A stretch of DNA of 64,000 nucleotides. Origin: Enhydrobacter sp. GTDB lineage: Bacteria > Pseudomonadota > Alphaproteobacteria > Reyranellales > Reyranellaceae. Position 1 is the stretch's first letter. Each line of letters starts with the position of its first letter. The translations under genes were made by a program, and so were the position numbers. This document shows positions 4,808 through 38,250 of the stretch, piece by piece. The stretch is taken from NCBI GenBank assembly GCA_025808875.1, contig CP075528.1, forward strand, positions 62,001 to 126,000, read 5' to 3'. The notes below the pieces were generated by a model. That model did not search any database and was not told the origin of the DNA. It was given only the letters and a program-made list of their open reading frames with translations.

Positions 4808-4836
4808 TTGCGTCCTTTGCGCTGCCTCCTTATAGA
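4808..4836 (+). promoter_or_regulatory. Candidate sigma-70 promoter of the metX leader
   Basis: TTGCGT at 4808-4813 and TATAGA at 4831-4836 are separated by exactly 17 bp. The predicted start falls near 4843, right at the 5' edge of the SAM-II aptamer. The spacing and fit to the riboswitch make it credible, although each hexamer is only a partial match. Confidence 0.55.
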
Positions 4837-4843
4837 AGCTTCT

Positions 4844-4898
4844 CCGTGGAATTTGAGCCGACCGGCTTGCGGCCACGTTAAACCCCGCTAAAAGGTCG
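4844..4898 (+). promoter_or_regulatory. SAM-II (SAM-alpha) riboswitch aptamer
   Basis: The sequence shows the SAM-II pattern. Stem P1 is CGTGG (4845-4849) with CCACG (4873-4877). The loop carries ATTTGAGCC and CTTGC, followed by TTAAAC and GCTAAAA. The pseudoknot can form from GCGG (4869-4872) with CCGC (4885-4888) and GACC (4860-4863) with GGTC (4894-4897). SAM-II aptamers are known upstream of metX, metA and similar genes in Alphaproteobacteria and lower expression when S-adenosylmethionine is high. An intrinsic terminator directly follows, so control is probably by transcription termination. Confidence 0.93.
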
Positions 4899-4909
4899 GA
4901 GCGCTTCGA

Positions 4910-4943
4910 AAAAAGCCCCCGCCCTTCCGGTCGGGGGCTTTTT
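4910..4943 (+). terminator. Rho-independent terminator between the SAM-II aptamer and metX
   Basis: A perfect 12-bp inverted repeat (4910-4921 with 4932-4943) with a 10-nt loop ends in a run of five T. It sits 11 bp after the aptamer and just before the metX start, as expected for the expression platform of the riboswitch. The left arm also carries an A run, so the hairpin could work in both directions and may also insulate the divergent operon. Confidence 0.85.
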
Positions 4944-30049: not shown

Positions 30050-30119
30050 TTTCAAGGGCATGAGGTTCAGCTTGCATTCACTGGAGGAGCGGCTAATGTC
30101 CTATGCAAGTCTGGCGTGT

Positions 30120-30138
30120 AGATATGCATTTTTGCAGA
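30120..30138 (+). promoter_or_regulatory. Copy 1 of a 19-bp repeated motif, upstream of the XRE regulator gene
   Basis: The sequence AGATATGCATTTTTGCAGA here is identical to 36924-36942 and differs by one base from 37389-37407. It contains TGCA-TTTT-TGCA, a symmetrical arrangement typical of operator sites. It lies about 100 bp before the XRE start, which suggests autoregulation by that protein (inference). Confidence 0.6.
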
Positions 30139-30237: not shown

Positions 30238-30696
30238 ATGGCAAGATCTCATCCCGTCGATGTCCACGTCGGAGCCAGGATGCGTCAGCGGCGCACGCTT
30301 CTCGGGATGAGCCAGGAAAAGCTTGGCACTGCGGTCGGCCTCACCTTTCAGCAGATTCAGAAATACGAGCGCGGTTCGAACCGCATCGGGTCGAGCCGGT
30401 TGTTCGAGTTCGCCAAGGTGCTCGACGTGCCGGTCTCCTATTTCTTCGACGAGATGCCGTCGAATGTGCTGGCTGGGCGGCCGATGTCGGGGCGCGGCCG
30501 CAAGGGTGGCTTCGGAGAGGCCGCCACGCCGTTCGAGCAGGAGAAGGATCCGCTGATCAAGCGAGAGACGCTGGAGCTCGTCCGCGCCTACTACAAGATC
30601 CGCGAAGGTCGCGTGCGCAAGCGCATCTTTGAGATGGTAAAGGCGGTCGGTGCCGCCAGCCATGCCGAGGTCCTGGGCGGCCGCAAGGGTCGATGA
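30238..30696 (+). CDS. XRE family helix-turn-helix regulator
   Basis: A 152-residue protein with an N-terminal Cro/C1-type domain (residues 9-65: R-M-R-Q-R-R-T-L-L-G-M-S-Q-E-K-L and F-Q-Q-I-Q-K-Y-E-R-G) and a helical C-terminal tail. A regulator of this type regularly stands between lnt and metK in Alphaproteobacteria, resembling the PraR/PhrR group. The 19-bp motif at 30120 lies in its leader. ATG with AAGGA upstream. A hairpin (30708-30724) lies 11 bp after the stop. Confidence 0.9.
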   Translation: MARSHPVDVHVGARMRQRRTLLGMSQEKLGTAVGLTFQQIQKYERGSNRIGSSRLFEFAKVLDVPVSYFFDEMPSNVLAGRPMSGRGRKGGFGEAATPFEQEKDPLIKRETLELVRAYYKIREGRVRKRIFEMVKAVGAASHAEVLGGRKGR

Positions 30697-30724: not shown

Positions 30725-30782
30725 TGATTTCCATCGCCTTTTGGAGTTTTTAGCCGACGCGATACCGATATCCCGGTATTGC

Positions 30783-30832
30783 CGCGGATGGATTTGGACG
30801 ACTTGCCACCGCGAAAACAAAGGCTAAGCCGG
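30783..30832 (+). promoter_or_regulatory. Candidate reduced SAM-II-like riboswitch in the metK leader
   Basis: CGCGG (30783-30787) pairs with CCGCG (30809-30813), enclosing an ATTTG (30792-30796) and a CTTGCC. AAAAC and GGCTAA (30822-30827) follow. This is the order seen in the metX SAM-II aptamer (stem, ATTTG, CTTGC, stem, AAAC, GCTAA). GCC (30805-30807) can pair with GGC (30822-30824) as the pseudoknot, in place of GCGG/CCGC at metX. The run of A after GCTA is shorter than the consensus, so I treat this as a candidate only. Confidence 0.42.
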
Positions 30833-30889
30833 ACGTTGGTGGCCCTGCCGCCCTGCCCGGAGGTCCAGTGACATCTGTGGAGGGGTGCA

Positions 30890-36923: not shown

Positions 36924-36942
36924 AGATATGCATTTTTGCAGA
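36924..36942 (+). promoter_or_regulatory. Copy 2 of the 19-bp repeated motif, before the putative RNA gene
   Basis: Identical to the motif at 30120-30138. Here a TGCTAAGGT element (possible extended -10, TAAGGT at 36966-36971) follows 42 bp after the motif start. Copy 3 has the same layout at nearly the same distance. Confidence 0.65.
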
Positions 36943-36977
36943 TAACGAACGGCGAGGCTCTTTGCTAAGGTCGCCAC

Positions 36978-37208
36978 ATTGAGACGTCGTTCGTAATCGC
37001 AATTCATAGCTGGAAGGTTTTTGCAGCGAGATTGGCCAGCTTCCACTCGAGCAGGCCCTAAACCCACCAAGTTCGCCCTAGCCCGCCAGCGGCCCCCCAA
37101 GCCGCACTTCGAAGCCCCCTTCCCACACACCCTAAGGCTTCGATACACCCCACACCCAGGCGGGCTCCTAAGGAAGGCCGGTCGTTCCCCAAGCGACCGG
37201 CCTTTCGT
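36978..37208 (+). ncRNA. Candidate structured small RNA (tetR-less copy of the TetR 3' unit)
   Basis: Between a motif-bearing promoter and a terminator lies about 230 bp without a convincing ORF. Its 3' half can fold as a three-way junction. An outer stem pairs AGCCCGCC (37080-37087) with GGCGGGCT (37159-37166). Hairpin 1 is GCGGC/GCCGC (37089-37105, loop CCCCCAA). Hairpin 2 is CGAAGCC/GGCTTCG (37110-37142) with a C-rich loop. The terminator stem at 37174-37204 presents TTCCCC. C-rich loops of this sort pair with Shine-Dalgarno sequences in known alphaproteobacterial sRNAs. The same fold occurs at 38106-38236. Just before the fold, one frame reads E-Q-A-L-N-P-P-S-S-P-stop, close to the TetR end Q-Q-A-L-T-V-P-T-Q-P, so the unit may be a tetR copy whose body was deleted. 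Confidence 0.6.
37174..37204 (+). terminator. Rho-independent-type hairpin ending the candidate RNA
   Basis: AAGGCCGGTCG (37174-37184) pairs perfectly with CGACCGGCCTT (37194-37204) around TTCCCCAAG. The T tract is short (CTTTCG). An almost identical hairpin follows the TetR gene at 38206-38236. Confidence 0.75.
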
Positions 37209-37388
37209 ATTCCAGCTCCTTTGCATTCTTGGCCGGCCCGTCATCCACAGGCGGGTGTTTGACCGTGGAAATCACTCGCGTTACGGAAACGTCGGCATCA
37301 TGTCGCGTTCTCGGTGCAGTTTTAGATCTCCCAAAAATGCCTATCTCGAAAGAAAAATGTAGGAGAAATCAGAGGGTGAAGGGATCTG

Positions 37389-37407
37389 AGATATGCAATT
37401 TTGCAGA
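37389..37407 (+). promoter_or_regulatory. Copy 3 of the 19-bp repeated motif, upstream of the TetR gene
   Basis: Differs from copies 1 and 2 by one base (T to A in the centre). A TGCTAAAGT element (TAAAGT at 37430-37435) follows 41 bp after the motif start, as in copy 2, and the surrounding 60 bp are clearly related. It lies 67 bp before the TetR start codon. Confidence 0.65.
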
Positions 37408-37473
37408 TTACGACGGAAACCTCGCATGCTAAAGTAGCGTCATTAAAGAAATTCTTATTCTATTGGTTTTAAT

Positions 37474-38124
37474 ATGAAAATCGTCGGATTCCCGATTGAT
37501 GTGTCGCGGTCGCAGGATGGCCGCATCGTGCGCGGCCTGCGGACCCGTCAAGCTTTGATCCAGGCCACGCTGGACCTGATCCAGGCAGGCGATGTCGAGC
37601 CGACATCGGCCGCCATCGCCACGATCGCGGGTGTGTCCAGCCGGGCGCTCTTCCAACATTTCACCAATCTCGCCGATCTCTACGCCGCGGCCTTCGACCT
37701 GGCGGTCAGCCGTGCGTTCGACCGCAGCCGGCCGGTCGACTCCGAAGCGCCGCTGGCCAACCGCATCGAATTGCTGGTGTCGGATCGGTCCGAGCTCTTC
37801 GAGGAATGGCTGCCGGTATGGCACTTCGCCGAGCGCGTGCGCTCGGTTGCTCCGGCGGTCGGGCTCGGCGTATCGCAACTTCGCAAGCTCCTGCGCGAAC
37901 GCCTCGCCGGCTGGTTCGCCGCCGAGCTCGGCAATCTCGATCCGTCGGCACGCGATCTCGTGCTCGATTCGCTCGATGTCGCCTTCGGCCTCGACAGCTG
38001 GATGAACATGCGCGAGCAACTTCGCCTCTCGCCGGTGCACGCCTCGCGGACCTGGCGCTTCACCGCCGAAGCGATCGTGCAGCAAGCACTCACGGTTCCC
38101 ACACAGCCCGTGGCGGTGGCCTGA
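37474..38124 (+). CDS. TetR/AcrR family transcriptional regulator, paralogue of 723-1346
   Basis: A 216-residue regulator. The helix-turn-helix (about residues 20-62) includes I-A-T-I-A-G-V-S-S-R-A-L-F-Q-H-F, and the C-terminal region carries M-N-M-R-E-Q-L-R-L-S...T-W-R-F-T-A-E-A-I. It is preceded by the 19-bp motif and followed by a structured 3' region. The last codons and the TGA stop lie inside the predicted RNA junction (the stop is in the loop of hairpin 1), so the mRNA may also act as an RNA regulator or be processed to one. The target genes are not evident. Confidence 0.88.
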   Translation: MKIVGFPIDVSRSQDGRIVRGLRTRQALIQATLDLIQAGDVEPTSAAIATIAGVSSRALFQHFTNLADLYAAAFDLAVSRAFDRSRPVDSEAPLANRIELLVSDRSELFEEWLPVWHFAERVRSVAPAVGLGVSQLRKLLRERLAGWFAAELGNLDPSARDLVLDSLDVAFGLDSWMNMREQLRLSPVHASRTWRFTAEAIVQQALTVPTQPVAVA

Positions 38125-38236
38125 CCGGCCACCTGCGTCGAAGCCCCTTCCCACAACCCCACGGCTTCGTCGCATTCCTTCCCACCCCAGCCACGGGCGA
38201 AACAGAAAGGCCGGTCGTTCCCCACGACCGGCCTTT
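38106..38236 (+). ncRNA. Candidate structured RNA at the 3' end of the TetR mRNA
   Basis: Same architecture as 37080-37204. An outer stem pairs GCCCGTGGC (38106-38114) with GCCACGGGC (38190-38198). Hairpin 1 is GGTGGCC/GGCCACC (38115-38133). Hairpin 2 is CGAAGCC/GGCTTCG (38139-38169) with a C-rich loop, followed by the terminator at 38206-38236. Outer stem and hairpin 1 differ in sequence from the other copy but keep pairing, which argues for selection on RNA structure. It overlaps the end of the TetR reading frame. Confidence 0.6.
38206..38236 (+). terminator. Rho-independent-type hairpin after TetR
   Basis: AAAGGCCGGTCG (38206-38217) pairs with CGACCGGCCTTT (38225-38236) around TTCCCCA. 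Its sequence is nearly the same as the hairpin at 37174-37204. The T tract is short. Confidence 0.78.
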
Positions 38237-38250
38237 CCAATTCGACAAAG

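Follow-up and report, generated by a model that had tools for sequence, protein, structure and literature searches.

Two Paralogous Three-Way-Junction RNAs in Reyranella, One Stand-Alone and One Embedded in the 3′ End of a tetR Gene, and a Three-Site Operator Shared with an XRE Regulator Gene

The window, that is, the whole stretch of 64,000 nucleotides that was analysed, contains two paralogous three-way-junction RNAs with near-identical terminators, sRNA1 (37080-37206) and sRNA2 (38106-38237), the former standing alone and the latter overlapping the end of a tetR gene. Both folds, their covariation, their paralogy, a three-site regulon and the embedding in coding sequence were computed directly. 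The two RNAs represent an RNA family that had not been described before and is probably trans-acting, and their arrangement is new as well; a full-text literature search returned no small-RNA report for Reyranella. The reading that we lean towards is a pair of C-rich base-pairing RNAs controlled by an XRE-family regulator, one of them made on its own and the other forming the 3′ end of the tetR mRNA.

Architecture of the Two RNAs

Both units comprise an outer stem enclosing two hairpins, followed by a terminator hairpin. The preliminary description had proposed two related units with a shared fold and a near-identical terminator, and both the sequence and the folds were recovered as it gave them, with minor corrections. 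The elements are as follows:

37080-37206, + strand: sRNA1 core, comprising outer stem, hairpin 1, hairpin 2 (loop CCCUUCCCACACACCC) and terminator hairpin (loop UUCCCC)
37080-37087 and 37159-37166, + strand: sRNA1 outer stem, AGCCCGCC/GGCGGGCT, enclosing hairpins 1 and 2
37089-37105, + strand: sRNA1 hairpin 1, from the fold
37109-37143, + strand: sRNA1 hairpin 2, from the fold
37172-37206, + strand: sRNA1 terminator hairpin, from the fold, with loop UUCCCC
38106-38237, + strand: sRNA2, with the sRNA1-type fold and the 5′ outer stem within the last tetR codons
38106-38114 and 38190-38198, + strand: sRNA2 outer stem, GCCCGTGGC/GCCACGGGC, from the fold
38115-38133, + strand: sRNA2 hairpin 1, whose loop holds the tetR stop codon TGA (38122-38124)
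38134-38174, + strand: sRNA2 hairpin 2, from the fold
38205-38237, + strand: sRNA2 terminator, from the fold
36963-36971, + strand: putative −10 region of sRNA1, TGCTAAGGT, from aligned promoters and the fixed spacing to the operator
36978-37079, + strand: putative 5′ leader of sRNA1, about 100 nt here, missing in several lineages

The fold z-scores are −10.76 for sRNA1 and −10.79 for sRNA2, and 0 of 200 dinucleotide shuffles folded equally well for either RNA, both folds displaying long unpaired stretches that are C-rich and G-free. sRNA1 has no gene ahead of it on its own strand and a conserved promoter of its own, whose aligned homologues read TTTGTTAAGTT at −10. A covariance model, R1, built from 26 sequences, scores the sRNA1 core at 138 bits, and sRNA1 and sRNA2 are the only copies of the RNA in their own genome (5.19 Mb, single contig). 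Simple promoter and terminator scans flag neither unit, the promoter departing from the sigma-70 consensus and the T tails being short, and the labels "promoter" and "terminator" therefore rest on conservation.

The distance from the operator to the sRNA1 core is about 145 bp in most loci and about 66 bp in loci of the L114-L122 type, L125 and L082/L085, the core of these short-leader lineages lying almost directly after the −10 region. The leader is apparently dispensable, and because it has been lost in several lineages in which the core is kept, the three-way junction together with the terminator is regarded as the selected unit. A small open reading frame in the leader was considered and dropped, the leader itself being missing in several lineages.

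Distribution and Covariation of the RNA Family

A blastn comparison with 100 relatives places sRNA1 in nearly every genome of the genus at 84-95% identity, unpaired loops included, with sRNA2 about 1 kb 3′ of it in many of these relatives. A covariance-model search in related genomes, the check suggested in the preliminary description, detects the family in 58 of 65 Reyranella genomes and in the sister genus G154, which carries two copies, and the model is usable for annotating the family in Reyranella. With the same model, the family was not found in ten other genomes from the same family or order and nothing convincing emerged from 289 class-wide genomes, the two weak matches beyond the family, which score 38 and 30 bits (E = 4.5e-4 and 5e-3), being taken as chance. 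sRNA1 is kept in all 52 named loci except L128, which is cut by an insertion sequence (IS) and reaches a contig end, and a recognisable sRNA2 is present in 32 of the 52.

In the joint alignment of both RNAs, 96.9% of the cells pair and changes on both sides occur in 11 of 33 pairs, a level of covariation unmatched by any shuffle, with slid controls only 21-47% paired; the covariation between the two copies that had been claimed from the window is thus upheld. Compensatory changes in further homologues, whose absence had been named at that time as a refutation, are found within each RNA as well, in 10 of 36 pairs for sRNA1 (53 sequences) and in 10 of 41 pairs for sRNA2 (30 distinct sequences), in both cases above all shuffles and slid controls. 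Examples include (i) the outer stem, where AGCCCGCC/GGCGGGCT becomes AGTCCGCC/GGCGGACT in L082 and L085, and (ii) the change from GAAGCC/GGCTTC to GAAGTC/GACTTC in L109 and L112. The hairpin 2 loop CCUUCCCACA and the terminator loop UUCCCC are near-constant among homologues, more so than several of the stems.

Several loci display variations on this arrangement. Extra stand-alone copies of sRNA1 are found in six or seven genomes (L069, L070, L071, L072, L073, L074, L220), sitting away from tetR and in several cases preceded by their own operator, which reads GATATGCAAACTTGCA in L072-L074; the copy in L070 lies just 3′ of a tRNA-like 3′ end, without an operator. Hairpin 1 of sRNA2 contains a long additional hairpin directly after the tetR stop codon in L006 and L018 (also in L103 and L104), so that in L006 and L018 the stem is lengthened, not disrupted. 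In L221 (genome G046) and L128, tetR is interrupted at about codon 14 by an apparent transposase gene end, and in G046, sRNA1 is, in addition, lost together with the 3′ half of sRNA2, and the XRE operator is altered (AGATATGCATTTTTGTA).

Embedding of sRNA2 in the tetR Gene

The gene that ends within sRNA2 comprises the following elements:

37474-38124, + strand: tetR, 216 aa, with a TetR_N domain (Pfam PF00440 at gathering score)
37427-37435, + strand: putative −10 region of tetR-sRNA2, TGCTAAAGT, from aligned promoters

TetR orthologues are 66-93% identical in the 52 named loci, and 29 of 43 loci have the operator 86 bp from the tetR ATG. In sRNA2, the tetR codons G-CCC-GTG-GC form the 5′ outer stem and the hairpin 1 loop contains the stop codon, so the second copy does take in the last codons and stop of tetR, as had been noticed earlier, and the synonymous sites of these codons are constrained. 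Codons 212-216 show the highest synonymous conservation in the gene, codons 213-216 display zero synonymous alternatives among 22 orthologues, and, of all windows of five codons with fourfold or higher degeneracy, the last one in tetR is the most conserved, with 0.98 codon identity versus a per-codon median of 0.52. Covariation and synonymous constraint on the stem codons together bear out the proposal that the family occurs both as a stand-alone RNA and as a tetR 3′-end RNA.

Lineages devoid of sRNA2 mostly carry different tetR C-terminal codons, and their TetR proteins diverge fast while the neighbouring genes do not, a relation that goes beyond the preliminary description. The median TetR identity to the window protein is 90.7% with sRNA2 versus 75.7% without it (p = 3e-8, a value overstated because the loci are not independent, the contrast with the neighbour genes being still clear). 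The ABC, cytochrome c′, cytochrome b561 and Sel1 neighbours show no significant identity difference between the two groups, and XRE identity differs slightly (97.3 vs 94.6%). The sRNA2-less rows fall at several separate positions in the TetR tree, which suggests that sRNA2 has been lost repeatedly, the number of losses being uncertain because of the long branches. The locus would provide an example of an sRNA evolving in a coding end, with stop codon, last codons and RNA stem constraining one another, and a natural loss series for comparison. The tetR 5′ UTR (37442-37473, + strand; AATTCTTATTCTATTGGTTTCAATATG in homologues) is near-invariant in the main locus group and contains no Shine-Dalgarno sequence, a hint of separate translational control of tetR.

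A Three-Site Operator

The shared palindrome is present at three places, the third of them upstream of a gene for an XRE-family regulator:

36924-36940, + strand: operator 1, AGATATGCATTTTTGCA (19-bp motif 36924-36942), upstream of sRNA1
37389-37405, + strand: operator 2, AGATATGCAATTTTGCA (19-bp motif 37389-37407), upstream of tetR
30120-30136, + strand: operator 3, AGATATGCATTTTTGCA, downstream of the putative XRE −10 (TAATGT, 30094-30099)
30238-30696, + strand: XRE-family regulator, 152 aa, candidate operator-binding protein (HTH_3, PF01381; lnt-XRE-metK synteny)

The 19-bp motif shared by the two RNA units had been reported previously, and its two copies differ by one base; the accompanying TGCTAAxGT, placed about 42 bp on, has to be corrected, TGCTAA[GA]GT starting 38-39 bp after the motif start. 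That the motif marks a three-site regulon including the XRE gene is a new finding. At 0 mismatches, AGATATGCAnTTTTGCA occurs in the 5.19-Mb genome only at 30120, 36924 and 37389, all within the window, the third site preceding the XRE gene between lnt and metK. Across 61 genomes of the genus, AGATATGCAnTTTTGCA with at most one mismatch gives 158 matches, with exactly three sites in 43 of the 61, and the reversed-pattern control gives 0 matches in the same 61. A circuit with only three candidate binding sites per genome is small enough for complete testing.

At sRNA1 and tetR, the operator is located just 5′ of a weak −35, about 38 bp before the −10, a placement that would be activator-like; at the XRE gene, it lies 3′ of the conserved pair CTTGCAT...TAATGT, which would be repressor-like. 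The XRE gene is assigned, by its HTH_3 domain and lnt-XRE-metK synteny, as the PraR/PhrR/CdxA ortholog. In R. leguminosarum, PraR acts as a repressor at its own promoter, the motif being TTGCAA by MEME (PMC4149787); the PraR SELEX consensus is CAAC-N5-GTTG (PMC5527310), and lnt-metK is the conserved neighbourhood of the family (PMC10688885). Within Reyranella, the palindrome is conserved in the XRE promoter. Many operators read TTTTGCAAGTTAC, which contains TTGCAA, and CAAC-N5-GTTG has no match in the operator consensus. A second XRE gene (G000:C1:780566-781015), 90% identical to that at 30238, has a promoter without the operator.

The operator is probably bound by the XRE protein, which is favoured because its HTH residues 15-60 are almost invariant across the genus, whereas the TetR recognition helix (S55-H62) varies between lineages (SSRALFQHF, PGPVLFQHF, PKATLASYF) under constant operators. 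An alternative, which we consider unlikely, is that TetR itself is the binder, autoregulating and controlling both sRNA1 and the XRE gene. It draws on the co-occurrence of the operator with the tetR-sRNA locus: in other genera of the family, an XRE gene 78-83% identical is present and both sRNA and operator are absent, and the sister genus G154 displays operators at tetR and both RNA copies and none at XRE. This reading has to accommodate not only the changing recognition helix but also the divergence of TetR down to 66% identity while the operators are kept. Counting against the XRE protein are the mismatch of the operator with the PraR SELEX consensus, its absence from the XRE promoter of G154 and its absence from XRE promoters outside Reyranella despite a near-identical recognition helix; upstream of class-wide XRE orthologs it is absent bar one TGCAAATTTGCA in L153. 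A third factor appears less likely still. Genomes without tetR and sRNA (G009, G056 and G046), used as a binder test, are mostly assembly gaps, and G046 is not decisive because tetR carries an IS near codon 14 and sRNA1 is lost.

Proposed Mechanism and Alternative Explanations

From sequence, we infer the expression of the RNAs, the operator binder, the direction of control (activation or repression) and the targets. sRNA1 would be made from its own promoter, and sRNA2 would correspond to the 3′-terminal part of the tetR mRNA, acting either after processing has set it free or within the message. A single regulator, most likely the XRE protein, would control both RNA promoters via the palindrome AGATATGCAnTTTTGCA, activating sRNA1 and tetR by binding just 5′ of their −35 and repressing its own promoter by binding 3′ of its −10. 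The unpaired C-rich segments, including (i) CCUUCCCACA in hairpin 2, (ii) CCCCACACCC in the junction and (iii) UUCCCC in the terminator loop, would pair with G-rich ribosome-binding regions. A base-pairing riboregulator is the best guess because of the constant C-rich unpaired stretches, the stand-alone promoter, the loops shared by the two paralogs and the resemblance to alpha-r14/NfeR1. The anti-Shine-Dalgarno character ascribed to the loops earlier is at most a candidate one: the loops are C-rich and conserved, their sequence is CCUUCCCACA/UUCCCC instead of CCUCC, and a search of three genomes with the loop complement TGTGGGAAGG revealed no conserved start-region target. The matches to TGTGGGAAGG fall in coding sequence, presumed 23S rRNA and sRNA genes, with one Shine-Dalgarno-like match in G000 (L244) that is not conserved.

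Together with the long unpaired stretches of both RNAs, which are C-rich and devoid of G, the lack of a conserved mRNA target in this search would also fit loops that bind a protein, such as Rho, an RNA chaperone or a small RNA-binding protein, with the RNAs acting as decoys; no specific protein for these loops is known, however, and the conserved loop motif would also suit G-rich mRNA leaders well, which makes decoys improbable. It is quite unlikely that the folds are only strong terminators conferring 3′ end protection, with no function in trans. Such a role would be consistent with the GC-rich hairpin that ends both folds and with the position of sRNA2 at an mRNA 3′ end, where structures of this kind can protect against exonucleases, but a three-way junction with constant loops is more than termination requires, and sRNA1 combines the absence of a preceding same-strand gene with its own conserved promoter and 84-95% identity extending into the unpaired loops. 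The location of sRNA1 directly 5′ of tetR in syntenic loci raises the prospect of a cis-acting leader or attenuator of tetR, which is very improbable given that the operator and promoter of tetR come after the sRNA1 terminator and that the extra sRNA1 copies of six or seven genomes lie away from tetR. The stand-alone promoter, these extra copies and the constant loops were the grounds for rejecting both the terminator-only and the cis-leader readings.

The base-pairing pair can be extended, tentatively, to a three-promoter circuit in which a switch of the PraR/CdxA-type XRE kind would repress itself and activate both RNAs, one being fused to the mRNA of another transcription factor, so that RNA and protein fates are coupled. 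Each tetR mRNA would then yield both a regulator protein and an RNA copy, and loss of the RNA half would relieve the TetR protein half of constraint. In alphaproteobacteria, surface attachment and symbiosis are under the control of PraR/CdxA regulators, and the locus would link a regulator of this type to a small-RNA pair.

Comparison with Known Systems

No Rfam 15 family scores above gathering at the RNA locus, and in the whole window only SAM_alpha at 4836 does so. The best Rfam match of both copies is alpha-r14 (RF02344); membership was rejected, as the copies score 26.2 and 24.5 bits and the gathering score is 58.8. The alpha-r14/NfeR1 RNAs, which are anti-Shine-Dalgarno RNAs of rhizobia, resemble sRNA1 and sRNA2 in being alphaproteobacterial, about 125 nt long and composed of several hairpins with C-rich loops, the C-rich motif being present also in the terminator-hairpin loop and the loops being kept while the stems vary (PMC10746234). 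Nevertheless, NfeR1 comprises three serial hairpins, each with CCUCCUCCC, whereas the Reyranella RNAs display an outer stem enclosing two hairpins and the loops CCUUCCCACA/UUCCCC, CCUCCUCCC being absent from both. sRNA1 and sRNA2 are thus not alpha-r14 members, as score, topology and motif differ, and may, by analogy, work like the alpha-r14 RNA.

UTR-derived sRNAs are established in alphaproteobacteria, e.g., UdsC of Rhodobacter (PMC9779115, PMC8625941). Like these, sRNA2 includes the end of an mRNA together with the terminator, forming a conserved structured RNA over the stop codon and the mRNA 3′ end, and it fits the description of a candidate 3′ UTR-derived sRNA apart from processing. Compared to such RNAs, sRNA2 possesses an adjacent stand-alone paralog with the same promoter, and its 5′ stem is built from the last codons, with the stop codon in a hairpin loop.

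As in the PraR/PhrR/CdxA family (PMC10688885), the XRE gene, which is preceded by operator 3, is flanked by lnt and metK. On the other hand, the operator is unlike the PraR SELEX consensus, and the excerpts of this literature covered here describe neither an sRNA partner of these regulators nor an RNA arm of the PraR/CdxA switch. Controller (C) proteins of restriction-modification systems are small XRE proteins able to both activate and repress transcription. The closest solved structures to the XRE protein by sequence are two of them, C.BclI and the Csp231I C protein, although the sequence similarity is weak and the gene context different.

Putative Riboswitches Elsewhere in the Window

Two further structured elements are present on the + strand of the window: (i) a SAM-II-like riboswitch at 30778-30837, flanked by the XRE gene and metK, scoring 32.4 bits and thus under the gathering score of 44, also matched in L086 and L123, with the strongly conserved sequence GGATTTGGACGACTTGCCACCGC...GGCTAAGCCGG, and likely a divergent SAM-II riboswitch of metK; and (ii) a SAM_alpha riboswitch aptamer at 4836-4911, which scores 50.7 bits, above the gathering score.
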